Shown here in pieces: positions 8,270 through 47,138 of a DNA stretch of 64,000 nucleotides (position 1 is the stretch's first letter; every line of letters begins with the position of its first letter). This DNA comes from an uncultured Spirochaetota bacterium (lineage in GTDB: Bacteria; Spirochaetota; Spirochaetia; JAFGXN01): NCBI GenBank assembly GCA_944390005.1, contig CALXOJ010000002.1, positions 124,001 to 188,000 of the forward strand, read 5' to 3'. The notes under the pieces are model-generated. The model was not told the origin of the DNA. It was given only the letters and a program-made list of their open reading frames with translations, and did no database searches. A program made the position numbers and the translations under genes.

Positions 8270-10069
8270 ATGAAAAAGAAGATCAATTTTATGTGCACGG
8301 CGTTCCGTGACGGTTTCCAGTCTGCTTACGGTGCGCGTGTTTTGACAGAAGATTTTATGCCTGCGGTTGAAGCGGCAGCTAATGCCGGAATCACGCATTT
8401 TGAAGCGGGCGGCGGTGCGCGTTTTCAGGCGCCGTTTTTTTACTGCAACGAGAATGCGTTTGACATGATGGATACATTCCGCAAAAAAGCGGGTCCCGAT
8501 GCCAATCTTCAGACTTTGGCAAGAGGCGTTAACGTCGTCGGTTTGAGTTCTCAGCCGAGCGACATCATCAAACTCCATGCTCAGCTGTTCAAAAAACACG
8601 GCATGACGACGATCCGCAATTTTGACGCTCTCAATGATGTCAACAATTTGATTTACTCCGGGAAATGCATTAAAGACGCCGGTCTTCGCCATGAAGTCAC
8701 CGTGACGATGATGTCGCTGCCTCCGGGAGCGACCGGTGCGCACGATCCCGAATTTTATATGAATGTGCTGAAAAAAATTCTTGACGCCGGAATTCCGTTT
8801 GACTCGGTTTGTTTCAAAGATGCGTCGGGAACCTCCGTTCCGAAAGTGGTTTATGAAACAATTAAACAGGCGCGGCAAATGCTGCCGGAAGGAACTCCGA
8901 TAGCGTTCCACAGCCACGAAACGGCCGGTGTTTCCATTAATCAGTACATGGCTGCTATTGAGGCCGGTGCGACTCAGGTTGACCTTTCGTTGGCTCCTGT
9001 CAGCGGCGGAACCTGCTCCCCCGATATTTTGACGATGTGGCACGCTTTGCGCGGTACCGATTTTGATTTGGGAATTGACCCCGATAAAATCATGGAGGTC
9101 GAGGAAGTTTTCAAAGATTGTATGAAGGAGTACTTCTTCCCGCCCGAAGCAACGATGGTCAATCCGATTATTCCCTTCTCTCCGCTGCCCGGCGGCGCTC
9201 TGACGGCGAATACGCAGATGCTGCGTGACAACGGTTTGATGGATAAATATCCGGCGATTGTCGAAGCAATGAAAGAGTGTGTGGCGAAAGGCGGTTACGG
9301 AACATCGGTTACGCCGGTTTCTCAGTTCTATTTCCAACAGGCTTTTAACAACGTGATGTTCGGTAAATGGGAGAAGATTGCCGATGGTTACGGCAAGATG
9401 GTTCTCGGTTACTTCGGTAAGACTCCGGTTGCGCCCGATGCTGAAATCGTTAAAATCTGCGCCGATAAGTTGGGTCTGCAGCCGACGACGAAAACCGTTC
9501 TTGAACTGAACGACGCTAATCCCGCGCTCGGAATCGAAGCGGCGAAAAAACGCCTGAAAGACGGCGGCATCACCGATTTCTCCGACGAAAACATCTTTAT
9601 CTCTGCTTGCTGTGAAGACAAAGGCATTCTTTTCCTGCAAGGCAAAGCGAAAGTCAATGTAGCGAAGAATAAACCCGCCGCGGCTGCCGCAAAATCCGCT
9701 TCGGCCGGCGATGGTTATACTGTGACGGTCAACGGCAAAAAATACGGCGTGAAGCTGGATGGCAACAAAGCGACGGTTAACGGAAAAGTGTATGACATCT
9801 CCGTGACGGAAGGAATAGACGCTGCCGCGGCGGCTCCGTCAGCGGCTGCCGGCGACGGAACACCGGTGAATGCTCCGATGCCCGGTTTGGTTCTGCGTAT
9901 TCCGGTGGCGGTTGGCGATACGGTTGAAGAGAATCAGGAAGTCATCGTTTTGGAAGCAATGAAAATGGAAACGCCGATTTACGCACCGGCTGCCGGTACC
10001 GTAAAGAGCATTCTCGTTTCTAACGGCGATCAGGTCACTTCCGGTCAGATTTTAATGGAAATCGGTTGA
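8270..10069 (+). CDS. oadA: Oxaloacetate decarboxylase alpha subunit (carboxyltransferase and biotin carrier)
   Basis: 599 residues. Residues about 1-270 form the HMGL-like carboxyltransferase barrel, with [22 protein letters not shown] and FHSHETAG (metal-binding HxH). The conserved carboxylase middle domain follows. An Ala-rich hinge near residue 465 leads to a biotinyl domain with EAMKMET, the Lys being biotinylated. It transfers CO2 from oxaloacetate to biotin, and the beta subunit then decarboxylates it to pump sodium. Pyruvate carboxylase subunit B is a related possibility, but the flanking oadG and oadB make the decarboxylase far more likely. Confidence 0.95.
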
Positions 10070-34752: not shown

Positions 34753-34849
34753 ACGGCCGGCCGCAGGGTAAGAGAGAGATATAGTATCTGTTAAGTATAT
34801 ATAGAAATTCAACCTAAGAACCTCTCAGAGTGAAACAGAAAGTGTCAGA

Positions 34850-34876
34850 TTGACAAATCATAAAAAAACTTATAAT
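34850..34876 (+). promoter_or_regulatory. Possible promoter of the HNH/AAA module
   Basis: TTGACA (34850-34855) and TATAAT (34871-34876) are each perfect, but the 15-base spacing is short. The transcript would start about 50 bases before the ATG at 34935. Confidence 0.45.
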
Positions 34877-34934
34877 ACATTATTGTATGTAATTGTTTGA
34901 AAAGTGTTATGATAAAATATCGGAGAGGAATGAG

Positions 34935-36590
34935 ATGTCTAATGAAAATGAATATGCCTATTGTGAGACAGATGAGGAAGAAGTTTTTTTTAAACTGGAT
35001 GAACTCGAGTCAAATCTCGAAGAGAATATAGAAAAAGATTTAGCAGAGCTCGAAATTTTAAAACAACAGGATTATATGTTGGGTAATCCCGATGAACTCG
35101 GCAAGGTTGTTACCAATGTTATCTGGGAGCAATTTCAGAATCAAATCGGAGTGAAGTCAGGTGAAGATTTTATTAAAAAAAATAATAACCAAACGCTGGA
35201 TTTAAGAAATTCGGCTCATATCCAAACAACGGAAAATTTCGAAAAGGGGAAAATCGCAACTCATAATCGTGAAATTGATTACCAAAAGAAATATGATGAG
35301 CGTCAAGCCTGTTTTCAAAAAGATGCTGACGGAAATATCATAACACACGAAACAAGAAGTGGACGACGAGAAGCCACTCTTGTCAAGGATGCTCGCAAAC
35401 CTTTTGATGTTAACAGACCTACCGGGTCCGCCGAGAAAGGAACCGATATTGATCATATTATATCTGCGGGAGAGATTATTCGAGATTCGGAAGCAAATGC
35501 ACATTTATCGAGGGAAGAGCTGGTCGCATTTGCTAATAGTGATATTAATCTGCAGGAAATTCCTAAAGAATGGAATCGATCAAAGGGAGATAAACCGGTA
35601 GAGGAATGGCTTGACTATTCGAACAGTAAAGGACAAACGCCAGCCGAGATTTTTGATAATTTAGATAACGAAACACAAAAGACGCTTAGAGAAAAAGACA
35701 AAGCAGCACGTGCTGCATATGAAAGAGAAAAGCAAAAAGGCATAGAACGTTCCATAAAAACAGGACGAAAATCCCAAAGACAGGAAGCATTCCGGATAGG
35801 AAAAAGCGCAGTCAGAACGGTTGTGATGCAGCTCTTGGCAGAATTGGTCAAAGAAATTATTGCCAAATTAGTAAAATGGTTTAAATCAAGCAAAAAGGAG
35901 TTGCGATCATTAATTGATTCGATTAAATCAGCCATTAAGTCGTTTGTAGGGGATTTAAAAAAGAAGTTACTTAATGCAGGCTCTTCGGTTATGACGACAA
36001 TAGTATCGGCTATTTTCGGGCCGATTGTGAGAACCATAAAAAAAGTATGGATGCTGTTAAAGCAGGGGTGGAGTTCTCTTAAGCAGGCTATTGCTTTTTT
36101 ACGTTCACCGGAAGCCAAATCAAAACCTTTCGATTTGGTTATGATGGAAGTCGGCAAAATATTAATCGGAGCACTGACAGCGGGCGGGGCCATAATTTTA
36201 AGTGAAGTTATAGAAAAAGGGCTTTCCGCTGTAGGTCTCGGGATTGAGATTCCGTTATTGGGAAGCTTGGCTAATATTCTGGGGATCTTTTTCGGAGCCG
36301 TTGTTTCCGGAATAATAGGTGCAATAGCTTTAAATATAATAGATCGTGCTATCAGTAAACGACAAAAATTGGAATTGCATACTCAAATCGCGCAAAAGAC
36401 AAATATCGTACTTAAAGAAATAGAGAATTCAACGTGGGAAAAATTAGGAGCTGCATACGAGTCTGTTAAAAATATTTCGGAAAAAACAGTCGCGAGCTTG
36501 CAAGAATCGGAGGAAAGAGAAGCCGAATCTTTTCGCCAGCTGGAAGATGCATTTGATGAGTTTGAGAAAATGATTCAGAGAAGAAAATAA
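34935..36590 (+). CDS. HNH-motif protein with membrane-inserting C-terminal region
   Basis: 551 residues. Residues 1-45 are acidic. An HNH-type nuclease signature appears at about 171-220: DIDHIISAGEI (Asp173, His174), NLQEI (Asn205) and WNRSKGDK (Asn214, Lys217). A basic helical stretch follows (about 250-345), then a strongly hydrophobic region (about 400-480), then a coiled coil to the end. The combination of a nuclease-like domain with a membrane or pore-like region is not one I recognise. The start is set by GGAGAGG 6 bases upstream; an earlier ATG has no site. It is the first of three same-direction genes. Confidence 0.72.
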   Translation: MSNENEYAYCETDEEEVFFKLDELESNLEENIEKDLAELEILKQQDYMLGNPDELGKVVTNVIWEQFQNQIGVKSGEDFIKKNNNQTLDLRNSAHIQTTENFEKGKIATHNREIDYQKKYDERQACFQKDADGNIITHETRSGRREATLVKDARKPFDVNRPTGSAEKGTDIDHIISAGEIIRDSEANAHLSREELVAFANSDINLQEIPKEWNRSKGDKPVEEWLDYSNSKGQTPAEIFDNLDNETQKTLREKDKAARAAYEREKQKGIERSIKTGRKSQRQEAFRIGKSAVRTVVMQLLAELVKEIIAKLVKWFKSSKKELRSLIDSIKSAIKSFVGDLKKKLLNAGSSVMTTIVSAIFGPIVRTIKKVWMLLKQGWSSLKQAIAFLRSPEAKSKPFDLVMMEVGKILIGALTAGGAIILSEVIEKGLSAVGLGIEIPLLGSLANILGIFFGAVVSGIIGAIALNIIDRAISKRQKLELHTQIAQKTNIVLKEIENSTWEKLGAAYESVKNISEKTVASLQESEEREAESFRQLEDAFDEFEKMIQRRK

Positions 36591-36601
36591 GGCGTAGAGT
36601 A

Positions 36602-37909
36602 ATGGGAAATGATTTATTATTTCAAGGTGAAAAAAAGAAAACATTTGTTGTTAAGCGAGTTTTAAAGATTAAAGAAGAAATACAAAGTTCCTATAATGCT
36701 TTGCAGGAAGCTAAGAGAGATCTTGAACAGGCAAGATATGATTACAATTCGACTTCAAAAATCCGAATTTTTAAGAAAAGAAGACTTAAAAGGGAATATG
36801 AAGAAGCTAATCGTAAACTTATTGTGGCAAATGCTGAAGCGAATATTCAAATATTTAAAATTTTGGGTTATACATTGGAACTGATTGTTTTATGTTTTTT
36901 GCTTCCGATGGACCTAATTCAACGAACCAAACAATGGTGTAGGGCCGGATTTGAAAAAAGAGACGCAAGAATGACCTCTATGATCAGGTCATTAATTCCT
37001 ATTCTCAACGAAAACGGTCACCACGGGAAAAAGGGAAAAAGTAAAAGTAAATATAATATTTTGGAAGGTGTTTTACGTATTTTGATTGCAATATTGATTG
37101 GCGGCGGTGTTTTGTTTGGGATATACAGACTGTTTATATATGATTCAACTCCCGAGAAAGAGAATACGCCGGCAGTCGCAACGAAAGTTGATTCGTCCGA
37201 AAGCGGAACAATTAACAGTTTGCAAAAAGAAATAGAGTCACTTAAAGCAAGTTTAGATGATCTGAAAGCAGTAAAACCAAATCCGAAAGATTCGGGAAAT
37301 GCACTGCACGATACTAACCCGGCAGATTCGGTAACAAATGATATGTTAAAAACCGGTTCGGATGCTTTATCGGATTCGGAGACGACTATCGAGACAGAGA
37401 AAGAATCTGCTATAAATATTCAAGCAGAGGCAGTGATTGACAGTTCTGCGGATACTACGGTAGAGACCGGTAAAGCAGATGATGTAAACGCCATAGAAAA
37501 TATTTCTGCAACAAATAACATAAAGAATAGTTCGGTGATCGATGCATCGATACAAGAAAGTGTAAATAAGGTAGACGAAGATAATAAAACTTTGAGCAAT
37601 ACTGACGAGGTTCGTGATGTATCATCCAATCAAAGCACTTCGGTAATACAATCGATGGAAAATGAGTCGAATGCAAATGCGCTGGTGGATGAGAATTTAG
37701 AATCAGATATCGGAGTTAGTCAGGATTCGATTAATAGTGATGCTATAGAAAATTTTTCTAACGAATTAGCTGCGGACGAGCATCGGACAGACGTAACGGG
37801 AGGTTTAGCGCAAAATCGTATCGAAAATAGTATAAATTATAAGTCGAAGACACATAATACGCAGAACGAAAATTTTTTAGAGAATCAAACAAATTTCGGA
37901 AAAAATTAA
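36602..37909 (+). CDS. Coiled-coil membrane protein with long acidic tail
   Basis: 435 residues. Residues about 20-85 form a charged coiled coil (EEIQSSYNALQEAKRDLEQA). Two membrane helices lie at about 86-105 and 157-179. The C-terminal 255 residues are low-complexity, rich in Ser, Asn, Asp, Glu and Thr, preceded by a short coiled coil (LQKEIESLKASLDDL). I recognise no domain. It follows the HNH-motif gene by 11 bases and precedes the AAA ATPase, and is likely part of one complex with them. Confidence 0.72.
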   Translation: MGNDLLFQGEKKKTFVVKRVLKIKEEIQSSYNALQEAKRDLEQARYDYNSTSKIRIFKKRRLKREYEEANRKLIVANAEANIQIFKILGYTLELIVLCFLLPMDLIQRTKQWCRAGFEKRDARMTSMIRSLIPILNENGHHGKKGKSKSKYNILEGVLRILIAILIGGGVLFGIYRLFIYDSTPEKENTPAVATKVDSSESGTINSLQKEIESLKASLDDLKAVKPNPKDSGNALHDTNPADSVTNDMLKTGSDALSDSETTIETEKESAINIQAEAVIDSSADTTVETGKADDVNAIENISATNNIKNSSVIDASIQESVNKVDEDNKTLSNTDEVRDVSSNQSTSVIQSMENESNANALVDENLESDIGVSQDSINSDAIENFSNELAADEHRTDVTGGLAQNRIENSINYKSKTHNTQNENFLENQTNFGKN

Positions 37910-37989
37910 AATAAAAATGATTCTCTCGTTTTGAGACAATTTTAAGAATAACAGAGAAACAAGAAAAGATTTATTCTCGGAATACCATA

Positions 37990-39096
37990 ATGGAAAAATA
38001 TCAGTTCGAATTAATGGATTATGCATCAAAATTGGATGCGATTTCATCCGGTGCCGGTGAAATAGTCGAATATACAAAAAAAATTGTAAATGAATGTGAT
38101 GACTCAGCCATAAAATGGCTGCTTGCCAAGATAGATGCCGTTTCTCGGAACTCCGATAAACGGCTTAAATTTATCGGAAAACAGTTGTATGATTCATTGC
38201 TGTTGTTTCTTGGAAATTTAAGGCTTTCCGAAATTGTTGAAGATACATCACAATGCGATAACGGGAAAACGTTGGAAGAGTTACGGAATGAATTGGATAG
38301 TTATATCGGATTGGATAGCGTAAAGCAAAAAGTTTACAGTTTAATTTCATTTCATAAAATTCAGCAATTAAGAGAAAAATCAAATTTAAAAAATACAAAA
38401 TGTACTTTACACATGGCTTTCTTGGGAAATCCCGGTACAGGAAAAACCAGTGTCGCCCGTATTGTCGGTCAAATGTATAAAAAAATAGGTCTATTATCGA
38501 AAGGTCATTTCATAGAAGCTTCGAGAACAGATTTAATTGCAGGATATCAGGGACAGACAGCCTTAAAAGTCAAAAAAATAATTGATAAAGCAAAAGGTGG
38601 TGTTTTGTTTATTGATGAAGCATACAGTATTACCGAAAATGCCAACAGCGATTCTTACGGTCGGGAGTGTTTAACGGAATTAACAAAAGCCCTGGAGGAT
38701 TACAGAGAAGATTTGGTTGTTATCGTAGCCGGATATGAAGCCCCTATGAAACAATTTTTTGAATCAAATCCCGGATTAAAATCACGTTTTAATACTTATA
38801 TTTATTTTGACGATTATAATGCAGATCAACTTATGTCAATATTGGAAAAAATGTGTAATGATAATGATTATATTCTATCCGATGCCTTGAAAAACAAAAT
38901 GCATGATTATTTTATGCAAAAAATTAATGAAAAAAAGGATCACTTTTCCAATGGACGTTTAGTCAGAAATTTATATGATGATTTGATAATGAACCATGCA
39001 AAGAGATTGGTTGAAACAGAAGAATTTTCTGCTGCTGCTTTAGCATTATTGGAAGAAAAGGACTTTGACGAATTGCAGTTTATTTCAGAAAGGTAA
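37990..39096 (+). CDS. CbxX/CfqX (SpoVK)-type AAA ATPase
   Basis: 368 residues. An N-terminal helical domain (about 1-95) is followed by one AAA module with Walker A GNPGTGKT (146-153), a pore-loop-like GYQGQT, Walker B GGVLFIDEAYS (Asp209, Glu210), VIVAGYE as sensor 1 and an Arg finger in NPGLKSRFN. CbxX-type ATPases remodel proteins, as with CbbX on Rubisco or EccA in type VII secretion. Neither partner is present; the neighbours are the HNH-motif and coiled-coil membrane proteins, so it probably acts on them. Confidence 0.9.
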   Translation: MEKYQFELMDYASKLDAISSGAGEIVEYTKKIVNECDDSAIKWLLAKIDAVSRNSDKRLKFIGKQLYDSLLLFLGNLRLSEIVEDTSQCDNGKTLEELRNELDSYIGLDSVKQKVYSLISFHKIQQLREKSNLKNTKCTLHMAFLGNPGTGKTSVARIVGQMYKKIGLLSKGHFIEASRTDLIAGYQGQTALKVKKIIDKAKGGVLFIDEAYSITENANSDSYGRECLTELTKALEDYREDLVVIVAGYEAPMKQFFESNPGLKSRFNTYIYFDDYNADQLMSILEKMCNDNDYILSDALKNKMHDYFMQKINEKKDHFSNGRLVRNLYDDLIMNHAKRLVETEEFSAAALALLEEKDFDELQFISER

Positions 39097-39214
39097 CGCT
39101 TAGAAATCATTAAGTGAAATCCTTCGGGACTACCTGAAAATGTCCTACGTTTTTTAGAAATTCTGAGAGTTTCCGGAAAATAACCTGTCTTTTAAAACTT
39201 ATGAGTTCTTTACC

Positions 39215-39243
39215 TTGACAATTTGTTGAAAGTGTGGTATATT
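39215..39243 (+). promoter_or_regulatory. Promoter of the Cys-rich peptide cluster
   Basis: TTGACA (39215-39220), 17 bases, TATATT (39238-39243). A leader of about 25 bases ends with AAGGGGG (39261-39267) before the GTG start. The rest of the 178-base gap after the AAA gene shows nothing else clear. Confidence 0.75.
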
Positions 39244-39274
39244 TAATAATCATATGAGTTAAGGGGGAAAATTC

Positions 39275-39442
39275 GTGATTCGTATAGATTCTATTGCATA
39301 TGAAGTACTACTGGGTAATATTTGTAAAGATGTACTTTCACATGATGTCTATTATATTGGTCAGTGTGCAGGTTGTATGTGTAATTGTCGTTGTTCTTGC
39401 TCTGGGGGGCGTTTTTCTGGTTTTAATTGGGAGGTAATTTAA
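39275..39442 (+). CDS. Cys-rich precursor peptide 1 (putative RiPP)
   Basis: 55 residues from a GTG start with AAGGGGG 7 bases upstream. The N-terminal leader-like part contains YEVLLGNICKDVL. The core contains CAGCMCNCRCSC, with Cys at 17, 31, 34, 36, 38, 40 and 42, and the peptide ends with Gly- and Phe-rich residues. The leader resembles that of peptide 2 (pattern Y-x-x-L-[LF]-G-x-I-C), so the two are paralogues. The gene lies one base before peptide 2 and just upstream of a radical SAM/SPASM maturase. I infer a ribosomally made peptide whose cysteines are cross-linked. No known peptide family is claimed. Confidence 0.8.
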   Translation: MIRIDSIAYEVLLGNICKDVLSHDVYYIGQCAGCMCNCRCSCSGGRFSGFNWEVI

Positions 39443-39443
39443 A

Positions 39444-39596
39444 ATGAGCGCCAATAATGATCAATATATGAAACTTTTTGGATTAATTTGTAATAAAGCT
39501 GTTGTAATGGCACGTTGTGCTTGCGTGTCCTGTAATTCCTGTACTTGTGCGTGTTCTTGTCGTGCAATTCCTAAGACAGGGGTAATTGAATGGTAA
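39444..39596 (+). CDS. Cys-rich precursor peptide 2 (putative RiPP)
   Basis: 50 residues from an ATG with GGGAGG 9 bases upstream. The leader contains YMKLFGLICNKAV, and the core CACVSCNSCTCACSC has Cys at 25, 27, 30, 33, 35, 37 and 39 (also Cys16 in the leader). Its stop overlaps the maturase start by 7 bases, which ties peptide and enzyme translation together. The Cys-x-Cys ladder resembles substrates of thioether-forming radical SAM enzymes. Metal binding, as in a metallothionein, is an alternative, but the adjacent maturase makes it less likely. Confidence 0.82.
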   Translation: MSANNDQYMKLFGLICNKAVVMARCACVSCNSCTCACSCRAIPKTGVIEW

Positions 39597-40978
39597 ATAT
39601 ATCTCGTTTTACTCATATTTATGATTTAGGTGATGCGGTTGCGCTTTACCATTCATTGAGAATGAAACCGGTATATTTAACAAAAAATGCATTTAAGGGC
39701 TTGCAAGCATGGCTTGCGAGTCCTTTTTGTGATAAAATAGAGAATGCTCCAGAAAAAATTCGAACAGAAATCCATGAGCTAACAAAGTTTAAGATTCTTA
39801 CTCAAAATGAATTTGAAGATGATAAGGTTTTGCAATTTGTAAAATCAAAAATACCTGCTCCTGCTGTCAATGTATGTTATATGATTTTAAGTGAACAATG
39901 CAATTTAGCTTGTAAATATTGCTTTCTTGGTAATAACGACAGTGCTAAACGGGGCAATTTTTTGCGGGAAGATATGTCCCCAGAAATAGCAAATAGGGCT
40001 ATTGATTTTTTTATTCGCCAAATAAAAGCGTCAGGTTTAGATGTAGAGGGTAATAAACCTGTTTTGATTTTTTATGGTGGCGAGCCAATGATTAATTTCA
40101 AAGTATTAGAACTTGTTGCCGCAAGAATTAATAAGCTTCGTAAAAAGGAGCAATGTATTCACAATATAGAAATGTCAGTCGTAACAAATGGTTTGTTGTT
40201 AGATCAGGAAAAGGTGAGAAAGTTACATGATCTTGGTGTTGCAATAGCGATTTCTGTTGATGGCTTTTCAGAGAAAGCAAACAGTATGCGAGTTGACGTT
40301 GCAGGACAACCTGTTTTTTTAAGGATTTTAGAGAAGCTCAATATGTGTAAAGCAATGGGGGTTGATGTTTCTCTTTCAGTTACCTTGAGTGAAGAAACTA
40401 TAAGAAATACAAAAGATATTTTAAAATTAGTTGATGTATATGGTATTAAAGCATTTGGATTTAATATTATGATGTCAAGTGACACCTTCGTTCTACCTCA
40501 TAGTTATAACGAAGCGGCGGCAAAGTTCATTATAGATGAATTTATAGAACTGCGCAAACGTGGAATATATGAAGACCGAATGATGCGCAAGTTGAAATCA
40601 TTTACCAATGCTCAAATTTATTTTTCTGATTGTGCGGCAACTGCCGGAGGGCAGATTGTTATTGCCCCGAATGGACAAGTTGGTATATGTCATGGATGTT
40701 TGCATAATAAACAATATTTTATAGCTCATATTGATGATGATAACTTTGTCGCTGTAAAAGATAAAAATTTTATTGAATGGTCGCAGATAACCCCTGTTAA
40801 TCATCAGGAATGTATGAATTGTCCGGCTTTAGGAATTTGCGGCGGAGGTTGTCCTATTAATGCAATGCATCTTAAGTCCGGAAATACCATACATTCTATT
40901 GACGAACGGTTTTGTGCGCATTCCAAAAAAACACTGGAATTTTTTATCAAAGATTTATATCGTATTATCAATGAATAA
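39590..40978 (+). CDS. Radical SAM/SPASM peptide maturase
   Basis: 462 residues. An N-terminal region of about 90 residues may bind the peptide leader. The radical SAM core has CNLACKYC (Cys104, 108, 111), IFYGGEP and SVDGF. The SPASM domain for auxiliary clusters has Cys at 348, 367, 370, 408, 411, 417, 421 and 442, including CPALGICGGGCP. Such enzymes form sulfur-to-carbon thioether or carbon-carbon links in Cys-rich peptides. It overlaps peptide 2 and is followed by a UvrA-like gene. Base composition here is A+T-rich, unlike the backbone. Confidence 0.92.
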   Translation: MVNISRFTHIYDLGDAVALYHSLRMKPVYLTKNAFKGLQAWLASPFCDKIENAPEKIRTEIHELTKFKILTQNEFEDDKVLQFVKSKIPAPAVNVCYMILSEQCNLACKYCFLGNNDSAKRGNFLREDMSPEIANRAIDFFIRQIKASGLDVEGNKPVLIFYGGEPMINFKVLELVAARINKLRKKEQCIHNIEMSVVTNGLLLDQEKVRKLHDLGVAIAISVDGFSEKANSMRVDVAGQPVFLRILEKLNMCKAMGVDVSLSVTLSEETIRNTKDILKLVDVYGIKAFGFNIMMSSDTFVLPHSYNEAAAKFIIDEFIELRKRGIYEDRMMRKLKSFTNAQIYFSDCAATAGGQIVIAPNGQVGICHGCLHNKQYFIAHIDDDNFVAVKDKNFIEWSQITPVNHQECMNCPALGICGGGCPINAMHLKSGNTIHSIDERFCAHSKKTLEFFIKDLYRIINE

Positions 40979-41079
40979 AAAAACGAGAAATTCATTAAAT
41001 TGTTTTATGTGCAAATGGGAATTACTGTTACAGATAATTATAATTTGAAGATTATGTAGATTAATCGAAAGAGATGCTC

Positions 41080-43224
41080 ATGAATAAATTAATCAATATT
41101 TGGGGTATTGAAACAAATAATTTAAAAAATATTGATGTAAAACTTAATAATAATGGAATAAATCTTATTGTAGGCCCTTCTGGGAGTGGAAAATCTTCTC
41201 TCGCTTATGACACAATTGCGCAGATTGGACAACATGAATTTATGTCAATGTTTTCTGATGATATTTCTGAGCCGACTTATCGTGTAAAAGGGTATGAAAA
41301 TATGCAACCCGCAGTTCCGATTAAACAGTCGAATTTTAATAACAATATCCGATCAACGATTGGAACCTATTTCGGAATCAATAGAAGTATCATCTTGATT
41401 TATTCAGCCGTTTTAGATCTAGATGAAGATTTTTTTGTACTTAATAAGGAAGAAAATCTTTGTGAAAAATGTCATGGTATTGGCTCGTATAAAGTTATTG
41501 ACCCCAACAGGGTTGTTGATTTTAATTTACCATTAAAGAGGAACCCCATTCGCTGTTGGAATCGATATAAGGATTTTTATATTCAAATAATTCAGCAGTT
41601 TTGTTTAGATCATGGGATAGATTCTAAAAAAAATTTTCGTCAACTTTCTGCGGAAGAGAAGCATCTTATCCTTTATGGACAGAGTGTGAAAAAATATTCT
41701 ATACAATATAAGAAAAACACGGGATATTCAAGAAGAAGTACACAATATCTTGGAGTGATGACAGAAAAACCTATGATTTTAAAATTTACTCCATCAGAAC
41801 AGTATTTTTCAGATATAACATGTGAGTGTTGTCATGGGAAAAAATATTCGTCTAAATATGACCGATATCAGATTTTAGGAGTGTCAATAGGTGACTTCAT
41901 GTTGATGCCATTTAATCAACTTCTGCATCACATGAAAAGTCTGGCATTATCTATAAAAGATAATAATCTAATTTTTGCCTTGAATAATATAAATAACTTT
42001 GTTAAAAAAGCTTGTGAACTTAATTTAGGACATTTATGCTTTCACAGATCAATTCCAACTCTTTCAGGTGGCGAACTTCAACGATTGAGAATGGTGCAAG
42101 TTCTCAATACTCAACTGTCCAACTTGCTGCTGATTTTGGACGAACCACTGGCTGGCCTGTCTGGCAAAGAAAAAGATTCCGTTTTTAATTGTATTACGAA
42201 TTTATCTGAAAAACATGCTGTTGTAATTGTCGATCATAGCGATATCTTTGTGGATAGTGCAAAAACAATTATTGCATTGGGAGAGAAAGGCGGCTCACAA
42301 GGTGGACATCTTATTGACGTAGATTCTTATTTAAAAAAGCAACATATTATAAAAAAACTGGATGTAGCGAAAGCTAAGAGGATAATTCATGTTTCAGTAA
42401 ATAACTCAATATATGCGTATAATGGCGTGGATATTTGTATTGGAGAAGGTTGTTTGAATTTGATAACGGGTCATTCTGGTGTTGGAAAATCGACGCTTTT
42501 GCGCGAATATTTGCCACAGTATTTCGAACAATATTTCTATATTAATCAAAAGCCTTTATTAGGGAATAGGAATTCATCAGTTGCCACAGCGTTGGATATT
42601 TTTGTTCAAATCTCAAATCTGTTTGCATACAAGCATAAAAAAGATAGACGGTTTTTTTCAAATTTAACAGGAAATGATGGAATGTGTCCTGTTTGCATGG
42701 GGGCGGGATACATAGAATTGGGTATTGGTTATGGCTCCAAAGTGCAACTGCAATGCAAAGAATGTATTGGTACAGGATTCAATAAAATGCTTCAAAAATA
42801 TAAAGTCAACGGTAAGAGTATATTCGATATTTGGACAATGACAGTAGATGAAGCGAAGGATTTTTTTTCTTTAGATGATAAAATAATGCATGCATTAAGA
42901 GAAGCATCATCATTGCTTTTAGGACATTTAAAAATCGGACAGCCTATATCAACACTTTCTGGAGGAGAGAACATTCGAATTAAAATTCTGAAAGCAATGA
43001 ACTCGAAAGCTTTTGTATTGGGCGTTGATGAACCCTTTAAAGGTTTGAGTTATAATGAGAGTTTCTGCGTTATACAATATTTAGATCGTCTCAGACAGAA
43101 AGGAAAAACTATAATAGTAGCAGACCATTCAGAGGCAATTAAACAATATTTCGCAAATCACATCGAACTATCAGTGCATAGTGACGGTGTCTTAAGGAGC
43201 GTTCATGTATCATCTGCACAATGA
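41080..43224 (+). CDS. Short UvrA-like ABC ATPase of the peptide cluster
   Basis: 714 residues, against about 940 for housekeeping UvrA. The first nucleotide site has Walker A GPSGSGKS (32-39) and later LSGGELQRLR and LLILDEPLAGLS; the second has GHSGVGKST, LSGGENIRIK and GVDEPFKGLS. Zinc-finger-like pairs are CEKC, CECC, CPVC and CKEC. The missing length is in the insertions that bind UvrB and DNA. Such paralogues are known for resistance to DNA-damaging drugs in some producers; here it may protect against, or help export or process, the modified peptides. A second ATG 6 bases downstream of the first fits the GAAAGAG site best. It lies about 100 bases after the maturase. Confidence 0.85.
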   Translation: MNKLINIWGIETNNLKNIDVKLNNNGINLIVGPSGSGKSSLAYDTIAQIGQHEFMSMFSDDISEPTYRVKGYENMQPAVPIKQSNFNNNIRSTIGTYFGINRSIILIYSAVLDLDEDFFVLNKEENLCEKCHGIGSYKVIDPNRVVDFNLPLKRNPIRCWNRYKDFYIQIIQQFCLDHGIDSKKNFRQLSAEEKHLILYGQSVKKYSIQYKKNTGYSRRSTQYLGVMTEKPMILKFTPSEQYFSDITCECCHGKKYSSKYDRYQILGVSIGDFMLMPFNQLLHHMKSLALSIKDNNLIFALNNINNFVKKACELNLGHLCFHRSIPTLSGGELQRLRMVQVLNTQLSNLLLILDEPLAGLSGKEKDSVFNCITNLSEKHAVVIVDHSDIFVDSAKTIIALGEKGGSQGGHLIDVDSYLKKQHIIKKLDVAKAKRIIHVSVNNSIYAYNGVDICIGEGCLNLITGHSGVGKSTLLREYLPQYFEQYFYINQKPLLGNRNSSVATALDIFVQISNLFAYKHKKDRRFFSNLTGNDGMCPVCMGAGYIELGIGYGSKVQLQCKECIGTGFNKMLQKYKVNGKSIFDIWTMTVDEAKDFFSLDDKIMHALREASSLLLGHLKIGQPISTLSGGENIRIKILKAMNSKAFVLGVDEPFKGLSYNESFCVIQYLDRLRQKGKTIIVADHSEAIKQYFANHIELSVHSDGVLRSVHVSSAQ

Positions 43225-43273
43225 AGGATAAACTTGTAAAATTTTCATATTCAAATTTCAGTAAGGAGTTTTT

Positions 43274-43966
43274 ATGGAATCGGAAAAGAAGTATGACGAA
43301 CGATTTAAATCGATTGACGGTTTGAAATGGCTGCCGTGGGTCGGTAAAAACTACGATAAGACCGGAGTCCTCATTATTGCCGAATCTCATTACGGAGGAA
43401 AAACGGAATTTGAAGCGGACGGATCGGACAACACCAAGGAAGATTTTACCAGAGAAGCATTTGTAAAACGGCATGCAGACGGCGAGAATATGTGGAAAAT
43501 GCCGAATAATCTGATGCGAGCCGTTTGGAAAGGAGATTGTTCCGTCGGAAATCGGAAAATATTTTGGGGAAATGTTGCCTTCTATAATCATGTCCAGAAA
43601 CTGATGGAACTGGCAACCTGGCAGAGACCTTCCGATGAAGATTTCAGAAACGGATGGGATGTTTTCCCCGAAGTGGTCAAAATTTTGAAACCGGATTACT
43701 GTCTTTTTGTCGGTCTTCAAGCTTTCAAATCGTTCGGCGACAAGATGCAGGAGAAGGGATTGTCATTTGAAGGGAAAGGTTTCGAGAAGATAAACAGAGT
43801 CTGGCCCAGACGCTATACGTTAACGGTTGACGGCCATAAAACGGAGATAACGGGGATTAAACACACTTCCAGATATTTTTCATGGAAAAAATGGTACGAT
43901 TTTTTGAGTAATAAGAATAATAACTGGACCGAACCACTGGAACGGTGCCGTTCCAAACCTCAATAA
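43274..43966 (+). CDS. Uracil-DNA-glycosylase-superfamily-like protein
   Basis: 230 residues. GVLIIAESHYGG lies where this fold has its first active-site loop (compare GESxxG), and KILKPDYCLFVGLQAFKSF matches the core strand with a following helix. GIKHTSRYFSWKKW ends with the position of the usual HPS loop, here HTS. Catalytic identity is not certain, since the usual Asp/Asn are not obvious. It may act on DNA or on another nucleoside. AAGGAG fixes the start. A hairpin follows directly. It is less A+T-rich than the peptide cluster. Confidence 0.5.
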   Translation: MESEKKYDERFKSIDGLKWLPWVGKNYDKTGVLIIAESHYGGKTEFEADGSDNTKEDFTREAFVKRHADGENMWKMPNNLMRAVWKGDCSVGNRKIFWGNVAFYNHVQKLMELATWQRPSDEDFRNGWDVFPEVVKILKPDYCLFVGLQAFKSFGDKMQEKGLSFEGKGFEKINRVWPRRYTLTVDGHKTEITGIKHTSRYFSWKKWYDFLSNKNNNWTEPLERCRSKPQ

Positions 43967-43971
43967 TCCCC

Positions 43972-44007
43972 CAAAGGCCGGAGCTTTCCGGCCTTTGCTG
44001 TTTTCGG
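43972..44007 (+). terminator. Strong hairpin, copy A of a 34-bp repeat
   Basis: An 11-bp perfect stem (43972-43982 with 43987-43997) has a GCTT loop and is followed by GTTTT. It probably terminates the gene at 43274. Bases 43974-44007 match 47105-47138 at 32 of 34 positions. Confidence 0.8.
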
Positions 44008-44073
44008 GTGTGTTTTATGCCGTCATTTTTTCGAAACAACAATTTTTGAGAATATATTTTTTATGTATTTTTA

Positions 44074-44103
44074 TTGCATAAAAAATATATTACATGATAT
44101 ACT
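44074..44103 (+). promoter_or_regulatory. Promoter of the AbiL-like pair
   Basis: TTGCAT (44074-44079), 18 bases, TATACT (44098-44103), then 9 bases to the ATG, leaving a leader of about 2-3 bases. Confidence 0.6.
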
Positions 44104-44112
44104 GTTATCGTC

Positions 44113-45372
44113 ATGTTGGTGAGTGTTACATTTAATAATGCATTTATTTTTTCACAGGAAGAACGGTTTTCACTGAAAGCGGATTTACGCAGTAAAAAAT
44201 TACTTTCCAATGTTATAAAAACGGAAACGGACAATGTTGTTAAGTCGGTCTGTATTTACGGTCCCAATAATTCGGGAAAAACCTGTCTTATCAAGGTTCT
44301 CCGGGCAATTTGGAGCGTGATTATGAATCAGCCCGGTTCTGTAATGCCGAATTTGTTTACGGAGAATCGGGTTGTTGCTATTGCGTGTCGTTTCATAGAA
44401 GATAGCAGAGAATGGGAGTATGCTTTTAAGTTTGATGCCGGAAACAATGTTTTTATATATGAAAAATTCAGCCTGATAGAATTTGATGATCATCATAATG
44501 AAAAATCAACACCATATTACGAACGCGATTTCGAAAAAAATGTTTTTTACAGTAAAGACGATAAATTACGGGCCAGTTTAACACTTATGGGTAAAAATAA
44601 TATTTTACTTCACGTCGTTGATTCATCGTCATTGCCTTATTTGCAGGAAGCCAAGGAGATTTTATCGAAATTTGCATCACGCATTGTGATTGTGGATATG
44701 AATAATATTCCGTTGAATCAAACGATAGAGATACTGAAAAATCATGACAATATTCAAAATGATATTGTCGATTTCATCAAAAATGCAGATCTCGATTTGG
44801 AAGATTACAAATATCTTGAAACAGATCAAATTCGGGCGGAAGCGGTTTCGTTAAACAGGCAGCAGCCGACGGAAGAGTTAATAGCCATGAAACTTCAAAA
44901 ATCCATAGAGGACACTTTTCGTCTTGTATCGGTTTACAAAGGATTAAGCGTGCCCAGTCTGTTGTTCGATTCTACCGGAACAAAAAAAATTGCGGCACTG
45001 GCAAGCTATGTCGTTTCGGCTTTGAAATATGGTCATATTTTGGTTATCGATGAATTGGATTCCAGTATCCATTTTAAATTGACCCGTTCCATTGTTTCCA
45101 TGTTTAACAATGAATTAAACGATCGTGCCCAGCTTATTTTTACTGCTCATGATGTCAGTTTACTGGATTGCAAAAAGCTTTTTCGAAAAGAACAGATTTG
45201 GTTTGTTCATAAAGATAAAGAACGAACCTATTTATATTCTCTTGCAGCTTTTACGGCACAGGACGGGGTGCGGGATAACACCGATTTATGGGAAAAATAC
45301 AAACGGGGTGTTTTGGGTGCCGTTCCGGAGCCGGATATGCTGGAAACATTGATACGGATAAAAAATGAGTAA
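44113..45372 (+). CDS. AAA15-type ATPase, AbiL/RloA-like
   Basis: 419 residues. Walker A is GPNNSGKT (50-57) after an N-terminal strand typical of SMC/OLD-like ATPases. LLFDSTGTKKIAAL resembles the ABC signature region, HILVIDELDSSIH is Walker B with its Asp-Glu, and LIFTAHDVSLL is the switch His. Paired with a TOPRIM/RloB-type gene, this matches the AbiL or RloAB phage-resistance layout, where the ATPase senses infection and the partner is the effector. PARIS (AriA-AriB) is a related alternative. The partner's start overlaps its end by 8 bases. Confidence 0.8.
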   Translation: MLVSVTFNNAFIFSQEERFSLKADLRSKKLLSNVIKTETDNVVKSVCIYGPNNSGKTCLIKVLRAIWSVIMNQPGSVMPNLFTENRVVAIACRFIEDSREWEYAFKFDAGNNVFIYEKFSLIEFDDHHNEKSTPYYERDFEKNVFYSKDDKLRASLTLMGKNNILLHVVDSSSLPYLQEAKEILSKFASRIVIVDMNNIPLNQTIEILKNHDNIQNDIVDFIKNADLDLEDYKYLETDQIRAEAVSLNRQQPTEELIAMKLQKSIEDTFRLVSVYKGLSVPSLLFDSTGTKKIAALASYVVSALKYGHILVIDELDSSIHFKLTRSIVSMFNNELNDRAQLIFTAHDVSLLDCKKLFRKEQIWFVHKDKERTYLYSLAAFTAQDGVRDNTDLWEKYKRGVLGAVPEPDMLETLIRIKNE

Positions 45373-46012
45373 ACCAAATTTTCTGTTACATTCAAAAAGA
45401 AAAATCTGTCTCATTTGCGAAGGTCACGAAGAGTATGAATACATACAAAAACTGCTGTCTTTGAAAGTTTGGGCTGACTGTTATCAATTTTATTTGGTTA
45501 ACGCAGAATCCAACGGGAACATATCGGCCAGATATCAGGATAAATACCAGAGTGACAGCTATGATATTGTTTTTGCTGTTTGCGATACCGACAGAAGGCC
45601 GGACGGCGATTTTGAGTCTATTCGTCAAAAAATTAATAATATTTTCGGAAATCAAATTGCTGCCGATAAAGTAATTATTTTTGCTAATCCCTGCACAATG
45701 CAGGTTATTCTTATGCATTTCGGAGAGACTGCTCTCAAAACTCAAAATAAGCATAAAAACTCTTCCGAAATTCAACGATTGACAGGATTGGATGTATCGA
45801 AAGATTACAAGGCAAAATCCGACCAAAGGAATTTTATTTTTTCAAAAATCACTTGTGAAAATTACCGTGAAATGAAAGCCCGCATTCGCAAATTTTCGAT
45901 GGATTACAGAGAAACTCCTTCCTCCAATTTCCTGTATTATTTAAATCGTTTTGAAAATCTCGATACATCTTGGATAGAGGAAGTTAACAAAGAAATAGAA
46001 ACGGAAAAGTGA
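45365..46012 (+). CDS. RloB/TOPRIM-like effector protein
   Basis: 215 residues. ICLICEGHEEYEYIQKLL has the E-G-x-x-E start of the RloB (TOPRIM-like) fold, and VFAVCDTDRRPDGDF supplies the Asp-x-Asp metal site. FANPCTMQVILMHF follows the order of RloB proteins. Such effectors are thought to be nucleases that act on tRNA or other nucleic acid, as in PARIS, though RloB itself is not well studied. It overlaps the ATPase gene by 8 bases and is plainly its partner. Confidence 0.75.
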   Translation: MSKPNFLLHSKRKICLICEGHEEYEYIQKLLSLKVWADCYQFYLVNAESNGNISARYQDKYQSDSYDIVFAVCDTDRRPDGDFESIRQKINNIFGNQIAADKVIIFANPCTMQVILMHFGETALKTQNKHKNSSEIQRLTGLDVSKDYKAKSDQRNFIFSKITCENYREMKARIRKFSMDYRETPSSNFLYYLNRFENLDTSWIEEVNKEIETEK

Positions 46013-46079
46013 GAAGCGGATTTCCGTTTATTTAAATTAAAAATCTGTATTACCGGGTTTTAAAAGTAAGGAGAAGAGG

Positions 46080-47081
46080 ATGAGTGACACAAGCAAAATA
46101 GCTGTATTTTTCGATGCCGAAAACGTTTCCGCAAACTATGTTCCCGGAATCATTTCGTATTTATCAAAACAGGGCGATGTGTTGTATCAGAGAGCTTATG
46201 CCGACTGGTCTAAGCCTAACATGAAAAGTTGGGAAAAACAGATTTCCCGGACTCCCATTACCGCCATCCATCAGTTTCACCACAAACAGGAACAGGCTGT
46301 CGATAAAATGCTGATGATGGATGCCATAGAGCTATCCATAGAACACGACGAAATCGATATTTTTGCCATCGTAGCTTCCGATAACGGATATCATACCCTC
46401 AGCCGTAAACTCAGAAACCGGGGAAAAAAAGTAATTGGTGTGGGAGATAGAAAGATATTATGCAAATCGGAAACGAAGTCGGAATCGATTTGGGTTCGGT
46501 CATGTAACGAATTTCGTTATTTTGATGAATTGGAAGATCTCAATGAAGATATTTTATCGCAAGATAAATCGGAAGATGCGGAAATGACAGGTTTTGCAAT
46601 GGAAAAATTTCTGGAGCAGGCTTTCGATATGACGCCGACGTATAACAACAGTAATGCGGTACTCATGAGCCGATTGTGGGAATCAATCAAGAAAAAGAAG
46701 CCCGATTTTAATGTTGAAAATTACGGAGCAAAAAATATTCAATCATTTATTGCTTCCTTTAAAAACTTCAAAATAACCGACGACGGGAAACAGCCGCCGA
46801 CCTATTTTGTGGAAAAAGATGAATCATTCGTTTCCGATTCGGAACGGAAGATAGGAGTCGTCAAACGATATGTTAACGCATTCCGTATTATTGAGTCGGA
46901 CGGTGAAGATTATTTCTTCTATATAGGAGAGATCAATAAAGAGTTTAAAGGAGACAAACTTAAAGTCGGCACGAAGGTTGATTTTCTGGTGGTAAAGAAA
47001 CCCGACCCTGCCGGAGTTGATTCCCGGGAGAGAAACGGCAGGGCAACCGATGTTCGGGTTTTGAACGGGAGAGATTCATAA
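46080..47081 (+). CDS. NYN nuclease-LOTUS-cold-shock-like domain protein
   Basis: 333 residues with three domains. Residues about 6-150 form a NYN/PIN-like RNase domain (IAVFFDAENVS, MLMMDAIELS, IVASDNGYHTLSRKLRNRGKKVIGVG) with the acidic metal residues intact. Residues about 175-240 resemble a LOTUS (OST-HTH) RNA-binding domain (PDFNVENYGAKNIQSFI). The last 80 residues look like a cold-shock fold (KIGVVKRYVNAFRII, YFFYIGEI). It probably cuts or regulates RNA. Its position after the AbiL-like pair and before the second hairpin repeat suggests a shared defence role. AAGGAG fixes the start. Confidence 0.82.
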   Translation: MSDTSKIAVFFDAENVSANYVPGIISYLSKQGDVLYQRAYADWSKPNMKSWEKQISRTPITAIHQFHHKQEQAVDKMLMMDAIELSIEHDEIDIFAIVASDNGYHTLSRKLRNRGKKVIGVGDRKILCKSETKSESIWVRSCNEFRYFDELEDLNEDILSQDKSEDAEMTGFAMEKFLEQAFDMTPTYNNSNAVLMSRLWESIKKKKPDFNVENYGAKNIQSFIASFKNFKITDDGKQPPTYFVEKDESFVSDSERKIGVVKRYVNAFRIIESDGEDYFFYIGEINKEFKGDKLKVGTKVDFLVVKKPDPAGVDSRERNGRATDVRVLNGRDS

Positions 47082-47100
47082 ACAGTGATATTTTATTATG

Positions 47101-47138
47101 AACGAAGGCCGGAGCTTTCCGGCCTTCGTTGTTTTCGG
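47101..47138 (+). terminator. Strong hairpin, copy B of the 34-bp repeat
   Basis: A 13-bp perfect stem (47101-47113 with 47118-47130) has a GCTT loop and is followed by GTTTT. It terminates the NYN gene. It is almost identical to the hairpin at 43972. Confidence 0.85.

Follow-up and report, generated by a model that had tools for sequence, protein, structure and literature searches.

A four-gene cassette lies at positions 39215 to 43224 of the window, a 64,000-nucleotide stretch of DNA from an uncultured Spirochaetota bacterium (assembly GCA_944390005.1, contig CALXOJ010000002.1, positions 124,001 to 188,000). It encodes two peptides with ladders of closely spaced cysteines, a radical S-adenosylmethionine (SAM)/SPASM maturase and a UvrA-like ATPase. 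All four pieces were found where a first-pass annotation of this DNA had placed them, and the tight packing it had described for the first three genes was borne out, with a 1-nt gap between pepA and pepB and a 7-nt overlap between pepB and the maturase gene; the ATPase gene follows after a 95-nt gap. The features of the cassette are:

39215-39243, plus strand: sigma-70-type promoter TTGACA-17-TATATT, with TG before the -10 box (11/12 consensus matches)
39275-39442, plus strand: pepA, precursor peptide 1, 55 residues, GTG start, core IGQCAGCMCNCRCSCSG (TIGR04135, 38.3 bits)
39444-39596, plus strand: pepB, precursor peptide 2, 50 residues, core RCACVSCNSCTCACSCR (TIGR04135, 58.6 bits)
39590-40978, plus strand: FibroRumin radical SAM/SPASM maturase, 462 residues (TIGR04136, 768.8 bits)
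39695-39725, plus strand: terminator-like hairpin inside the maturase open reading frame (ORF) (fold search, covariation)
41074-43224, plus strand: UvrA-like ATPase, 716 residues, conserved start probably the ATG at 41080 (domain and motif matches)

The promoter had been called perfect, which holds for its -35 box and not for the -10 box, where five of six positions match; the spacer is 17 bp. By chance, about 0.4% of random 178-bp stretches would contain an equally good site, and most of the related cassettes inspected also have TTGACA at a comparable distance upstream of pepA.

It is near certain that the locus is a cassette for a ribosomally synthesized and post-translationally modified peptide (RiPP) of the FibroRumin family. 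The first-pass annotation had proposed two RiPP precursors with a radical SAM/SPASM maturase, as we also find, of a family it could not name; the NCBIfam search supplied the name (TIGR04135/TIGR04136). The maturase passed TIGR04136 (cut-off 400 bits) and pepB passed TIGR04135 (cut-off 45 bits), while pepA fell narrowly under the latter cut-off with an E value of 9.7e-10. The maturase was rejected as a SCIFF enzyme (115.4 bits against the TIGR03974 cut-off of 425), and the PapB, CefB and geopeptide systems were all far under their model cut-offs. No paper naming FibroRumin was found in the literature searched, searches for UvrA together with RiPPs returned no relevant paper, and no model or paper was found that includes the UvrA-like gene in the FibroRumin system. 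On the Campylobacter plasmid NZ_CP012551.1, the UvrA-like gene of the cassette is annotated as a "hypothetical protein".

We compared the window with 19 related loci in which the maturase is 54 to 86% identical (L003 to L018, L031, L049 and L053; L004 is partly masked, L010 ends at a contig edge, and L008 carries a frameshift beside a T run that may be an assembly error). According to record titles and lineages, the hosts include Bacillota, a Synergistaceae metagenome-assembled genome (MAG), Fretibacterium, Coriobacteriales, a Bacteroidales MAG, Kosakonia and a Campylobacter plasmid. In 19/19 of these loci, peptides lie upstream of the maturase gene and a UvrA-like gene downstream, and both peptide cores are present, as two peptides in 16 loci and as a fusion in three. 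A check proposed in the first-pass annotation, whether close maturase homologues adjoin similar Cys-x-Cys peptides and UvrA-like genes, thereby came out positive. Among 14 more distant maturases (about 30 to 43% identity), none had a UvrA-like gene within the flanks read, some of which were short. Conversely, a reverse search of 579 genomes found UvrA-like proteins of at least 50% identity only in cassettes, the next best match being 31% identical, and in a plasmid search the one match above 50% was the Campylobacter cassette, followed by a match at 30%. Maturase and ATPase identities were correlated (0.73, Mantel p 0.0002). The two genes are thus co-inherited in an exclusive pairing. The cassette is rare, with maturase matches in 2/393, 2/391 and 5/188 genomes of three samples. 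A viral origin was considered and set aside: viral contigs held no close relative of either protein, and phage sequences reached at most 26.5% identity among the matches listed. Six of the more distant maturases (L020, L021 and L024 to L027; 30 to 36% identity, no UvrA-like gene) have single Cys-rich peptides of other patterns upstream, often with a GN[IL] leader motif; several of these hosts are candidate phyla radiation bacteria and one is a Bathyarchaeota MAG.

The UvrA-like ATPase retains two ABC ATPase domains with both Walker and both signature motifs, zinc modules 2 (C128, C131, C248, C251) and 3 (C536, C539, C559, C562) and the insertion domain PF17755. It lacks the UvrB-binding domain and zinc module 1: the alignment breaks off past residue 111, and residue 119 aligns at UvrA 265. 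In domain composition, it is a class II UvrA of the Ecm16/DrrC kind. A canonical repair role was rejected, given the missing UvrB-binding domain, a score of 339.4 bits against the TIGR00630 cut-off of 729.8, and the separate, longer canonical-type UvrA that most hosts searched keep. Ecm16 (7SH1) was the second-best sequence match in the PDB, and the structure model of the ATPase (pLDDT 86.5) superposed on it with a root-mean-square deviation of 3.6 to 3.7 Å and a TM score of 0.81 to 0.82 (by Ecm16 length). In a tree, the cassette proteins formed one clade (support 100/100). It tentatively joined Ecm16 and the UvrA-like proteins of Gram-positive bacteria, separated from most canonical UvrA (95/86), but on long branches. 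Ecm16 protects the echinomycin producer without UvrB, and its insertion domain is required for DNA binding (PMC10192343). Because the partner of the peptides is the repair-like type of ATPase that antibiotic producers use for self-protection, the peptides are suggested to act on DNA. The best-supported reading, which we hold tentatively and with a little less than even confidence, is that the cassette makes a cross-linked peptide product directed at nucleic acid and that the UvrA-like ATPase confers immunity to it.

Both peptides are under purifying selection when the window is compared with its three closest cassettes, with nonsynonymous (dN) far below synonymous (dS) divergence for pepA (dN 0.15 to 0.19, dS 0.9 to 1.6) and pepB (dN 0.07 to 0.16, dS 0.8 to 1.4 where computable). 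Since homologous peptides also adjoin every close maturase, we conclude that they are real coding genes. They had been thought too short for most gene finders, yet both are annotated on the Campylobacter plasmid. The family consensus cores, IGQCTGCMCNCRCSCSG for pepA and RCACVACNSCTCACSCR for pepB, are nearly invariant across phyla; the window pepA is atypical in the family alignment, carrying C27 to Y and T32 to A changes at two nearly invariant core positions. In the leaders, only Y-x-x-[ML]-[LFY]-G-x-I is held in common across the family. The motif first described, Y-x-x-L-[LF]-G-x-I-C, is present in the window, while its terminal cysteine proved variable. Scans of 10 whole genomes gave exactly two peptides over the search threshold in each. 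In three loci, a single peptide of 65 to 67 residues holds both cores in tandem:

L016, 9798-10001: fused-core precursor
L017, 9798-10001: fused-core precursor
L049, 3715-3912, minus strand: fused-core precursor

This fusion argues for joint action of the two cores, or for the two behaving as a single product. L016 combines a maturase that clusters with the other fused type (94/87) and a UvrA-like gene that clusters with the R. albus type (97/99), so that one ATPase type seems to serve both peptide formats, with moderate support for the maturase grouping. Between pepB and the maturase gene, L053 has an additional ORF (9748-9906), a third peptide gene that resembles a degenerate pepB and encodes four cysteines.

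Dense, invariant Cys-x-Cys ladders in cores that always occur together or fused would also suit a metal- or redox-active cofactor or chelator, for which the ATPase would serve as chaperone or repair factor with no more than a loose link to DNA. We consider this very unlikely, as it leaves the kept UvrA insertion domain and zinc modules unexplained and the cassette is too rare, at the frequencies given above, and too mobile for a housekeeping cofactor.

The maturase carries the radical SAM motif CxxxCxxC (residues 104, 108 and 111) and seven SPASM cysteines (348, 367, 408, 411, 417, 421 and 442), all invariant in 20 sequences; ranthipeptide and sactipeptide maturases are recognized by this combination. 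Its structure model (pLDDT 88.4) begins with three strands and three helices (residues 8 to 86), which, from the fold, we take to be a winged-helix RiPP recognition element. The nearest solved relatives are CteB and TigE, with CteB (5WGG, 5WHY) the best in both sequence and fold. CteB is a thioether-forming enzyme, and TigE presumably comes from a cyclopropylglycine system. With the nearest solved maturases pointing to these two chemistries (for cyclopropylglycine, compare PMC9062424), cross-linking of the cores by Cys thioethers is likely but not certain.

The hairpin begins at +106 of the maturase ORF and comprises a 14-bp stem with one G-U pair, a 3-nt loop and the tract TTTTTGT. In 14/18 loci, at most one other local hairpin in the whole ORF is stronger, and L017 has it too; in all, the window and 14 related loci carry it. 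Across the 14 loci in which it ranks first or second, 95.4% of the alignment cells pair, a level reached in 0/500 shuffles. Two stem pairs alternate between A-U and G-C in many loci, one of them through the silent third base of a serine codon, where AGC occurs with GGC/AGC, and AGT occurs with GAC in L012, L013 and L015. L014, L053 and L019 lack the intragenic hairpin and instead carry a terminator-like hairpin with a T-run in the gap between the peptide and maturase genes. A search for a known RNA family gave nothing near gathering score. We take the hairpin to be a partial terminator governing how much peptide is made relative to enzyme; more speculatively, a ribosome melting the stem might tie maturase output to translation. 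It offers a clean case of a terminator-like element within coding sequence, one that other lineages replace by an intergenic element.

The cassette is mobile cargo. Its flanks contain MobA/MobL (L003, L013), a relaxase (L012), a serine recombinase (L007), IS110 (L018, L053), Mob_Pre (L009) and an integrase (L016), with similar genes seen by eye in L016 and L017, and L031 is a plasmid. The window maturase is closest to that of an Anaeromassilibacillus cassette (86%) and only 56% identical to the one from its own class, so the cassette was most likely acquired horizontally. Its G+C content is 33 to 37%, against 45.7% for the window. This mobile context at many loci, together with the lack of an exporter, would fit an addiction module in the manner of a toxin and antitoxin, in which the product poisons the DNA of its own cell, the UvrA-like ATPase is the antidote, and the mobile element is thereby retained. 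We give this only a small chance: the antidote would be a large, costly ATPase for which nothing indicates a lower stability than that of the product, and a toxin dependent on radical SAM chemistry needs a supply of iron-sulphur clusters and SAM.

The cassette sits within a variable segment of which it is only a part (34767-46977, unstranded, delimited by comparison with a sister species). In this species of the same genus (L097), the sequence on the left matches at 99% identity as far as 34766, and the match resumes near 46978-47103; between them lie other genes, including PDC-M30A/B, restriction-like and Csx1/CARF genes. In the window, PDC-M40B-like and AbiLi/AbiLii-like genes lie within the segment, and genes for a methyltransferase and Fic (PDC-S72) just outside it. 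The segment is a defence-gene hotspot, which as a pointer to the role of the cassette is suggestive only, since most other cassettes have no obvious defence neighbour by eye. Directly 3' of the cassette lies a 230-residue ORF (43274-43966) with a weak match to the uracil-DNA-glycosylase superfamily (E 0.027), which is not kept with the cassette at other loci.

A sister clade of maturases, 41 to 43% identical and with related peptides, was found in L019 (Desulfosporosinus) and L048. Directly upstream of the peptides, both encode a helicase protein, the two sharing 51% identity, with an HNH domain matched in L019 and a sequence aligning across it in L048:

L019, 6954-9398: helicase-HNH protein
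L048, 4594-7014: helicase-HNH protein

Two added samples (83 and 6 genomes) contained no further helicase-HNH clade members beyond these. The L019 cassette sits between a type III restriction system and Wadjet, and L013 precedes HsdR. The nearest UvrA-like relative outside the cassettes is on the Acinetobacter plasmid pXBB1-8, with one 52% identical to it on the Moraxella plasmid pNP7-2. On both plasmids the gene order is a Cys-rich peptide of 63 to 66 residues, ThiF, ThiF and the UvrA-like gene:

L087, 2502-7097: ThiF cassette on plasmid
L090, 3550-8154: ThiF cassette on plasmid

The second ThiF weakly matched a thiazole/oxazole-type peptide maturase model (45.7 bits, cut-off 187.65), and the cassette in L087 adjoins BREX brxL. 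This arrangement is possibly an undescribed RiPP class.

These neighbourhoods bear on the possibility that the cassette is an anti-phage or anti-plasmid system, in which the matured peptides would stay intracellular and the UvrA-like ATPase would be a sensor or effector on foreign DNA, replaced in the sister clade by the helicase-HNH nuclease. Besides the hotspot, its counterpart in the sister species and the defence neighbours of L013, L019 and the ThiF cassette, the absence of an exporter and the almost invariant cores speak for such a role. We regard it as unlikely, because reading the flanks by eye revealed no obvious defence gene beside most other cassettes, defence and bacteriocin genes both travel on mobile elements, and no specific PADLOC model covers the cassette when the maturase and UvrA-like protein are scanned. 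The UvrA-like protein matched nothing but ATPase components belonging to other systems (mad3 and others), and the maturase only general radical SAM models (viperin, pVip). A broader version, distinctly unlikely in our view, would make the cassette the first of a class of intracellular peptide-based immunity, in which a radical SAM cross-linked pair works with an exchangeable DNA-acting ATPase module against foreign DNA; the modules would be UvrA-like here, helicase-HNH in the sister clade and UvrA-like with ThiF in the parallel cassette.

Under the favoured reading, of a DNA-acting peptide with its own immunity gene, a single promoter would drive both precursors, and a leaky terminator early in the maturase gene would hold maturase and ATPase transcripts below those of the peptides. 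The N-terminal recognition domain of the maturase would bind the shared leader motif, and the radical SAM and auxiliary iron-sulphur centres would cross-link the Cys-ladder cores, most likely through Cys thioethers as in CteB. The pepA and pepB cores would act jointly or as one product, and this near-invariant product would bind nucleic acid. The UvrA-like ATPase would recognize product-bound DNA and, like Ecm16 with echinomycin, use ATP to clear the product with no need for UvrB; it would be the immunity gene of a mobile antagonism cassette. Several points weigh against this reading. Contact of the product with DNA is deduced solely from the partner gene; no dedicated exporter or protease is conserved in the cassette flanks, so that release of a product from a cassette lacking an exporter and leader peptidase is unexplained; and bacteriocins that compete with one another are usually far less conserved than this core. 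L019 and L048 have no UvrA-like gene within the flanks read, and the helicase-HNH protein in its stead looks more like defence than immunity. The U-tract after the hairpin is weak in a few loci (L007, L009 to L011).

The exclusive UvrA-like partner, with the anatomy of self-resistance proteins, gives FibroRumin a first testable target, DNA. If the reading is correct, the cassette would yield a ribosomally made, cross-linked peptide that targets DNA, would carry the matching immunity gene and would cross phyla on mobile elements. According to PMC10413001, UvrA-like genes have already been used to find intercalating natural products; that this type of ATPase also accompanies ThiF-modified Cys-rich peptides suggests such genes as a finder for DNA-acting RiPPs as well.

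Compared with known systems, the cassette shares with FibroRumin the tandem order of peptide, peptide and maturase, annotated likewise on the Campylobacter plasmid, and differs in its sub-threshold pepA with two core substitutions. From CteB/SCIFF (ranthipeptides), which have a similar radical SAM and SPASM arrangement, it is set apart by 21% identity over the fold match, the failed SCIFF model (115 of 425 bits) and two short Cys-x-Cys peptides in place of one SCIFF peptide. The ATPase resembles the self-resistance proteins Ecm16/DrrC in what it has lost (the UvrB-binding domain and zinc module 1) and kept (zinc modules 2 and 3, insertion and two ATPase domains), whereas identity is about 24%, the cassette proteins form a separate long-branched clade, and the partner product is, unlike theirs, a ribosomal peptide. 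The ThiF cassette likewise combines a short Cys-rich peptide, enzymes of peptide-modifying type and a UvrA-like ATPase that tentatively groups with the FibroRumin-cassette clade, on long branches; it has ThiF-family adenylating enzymes where the window cassette has radical SAM, and its ATPase is about 30% identical. That UvrA-like ATPases accompany two unrelated chemistries of peptide modification favours a role in handling the product over one in its synthesis.

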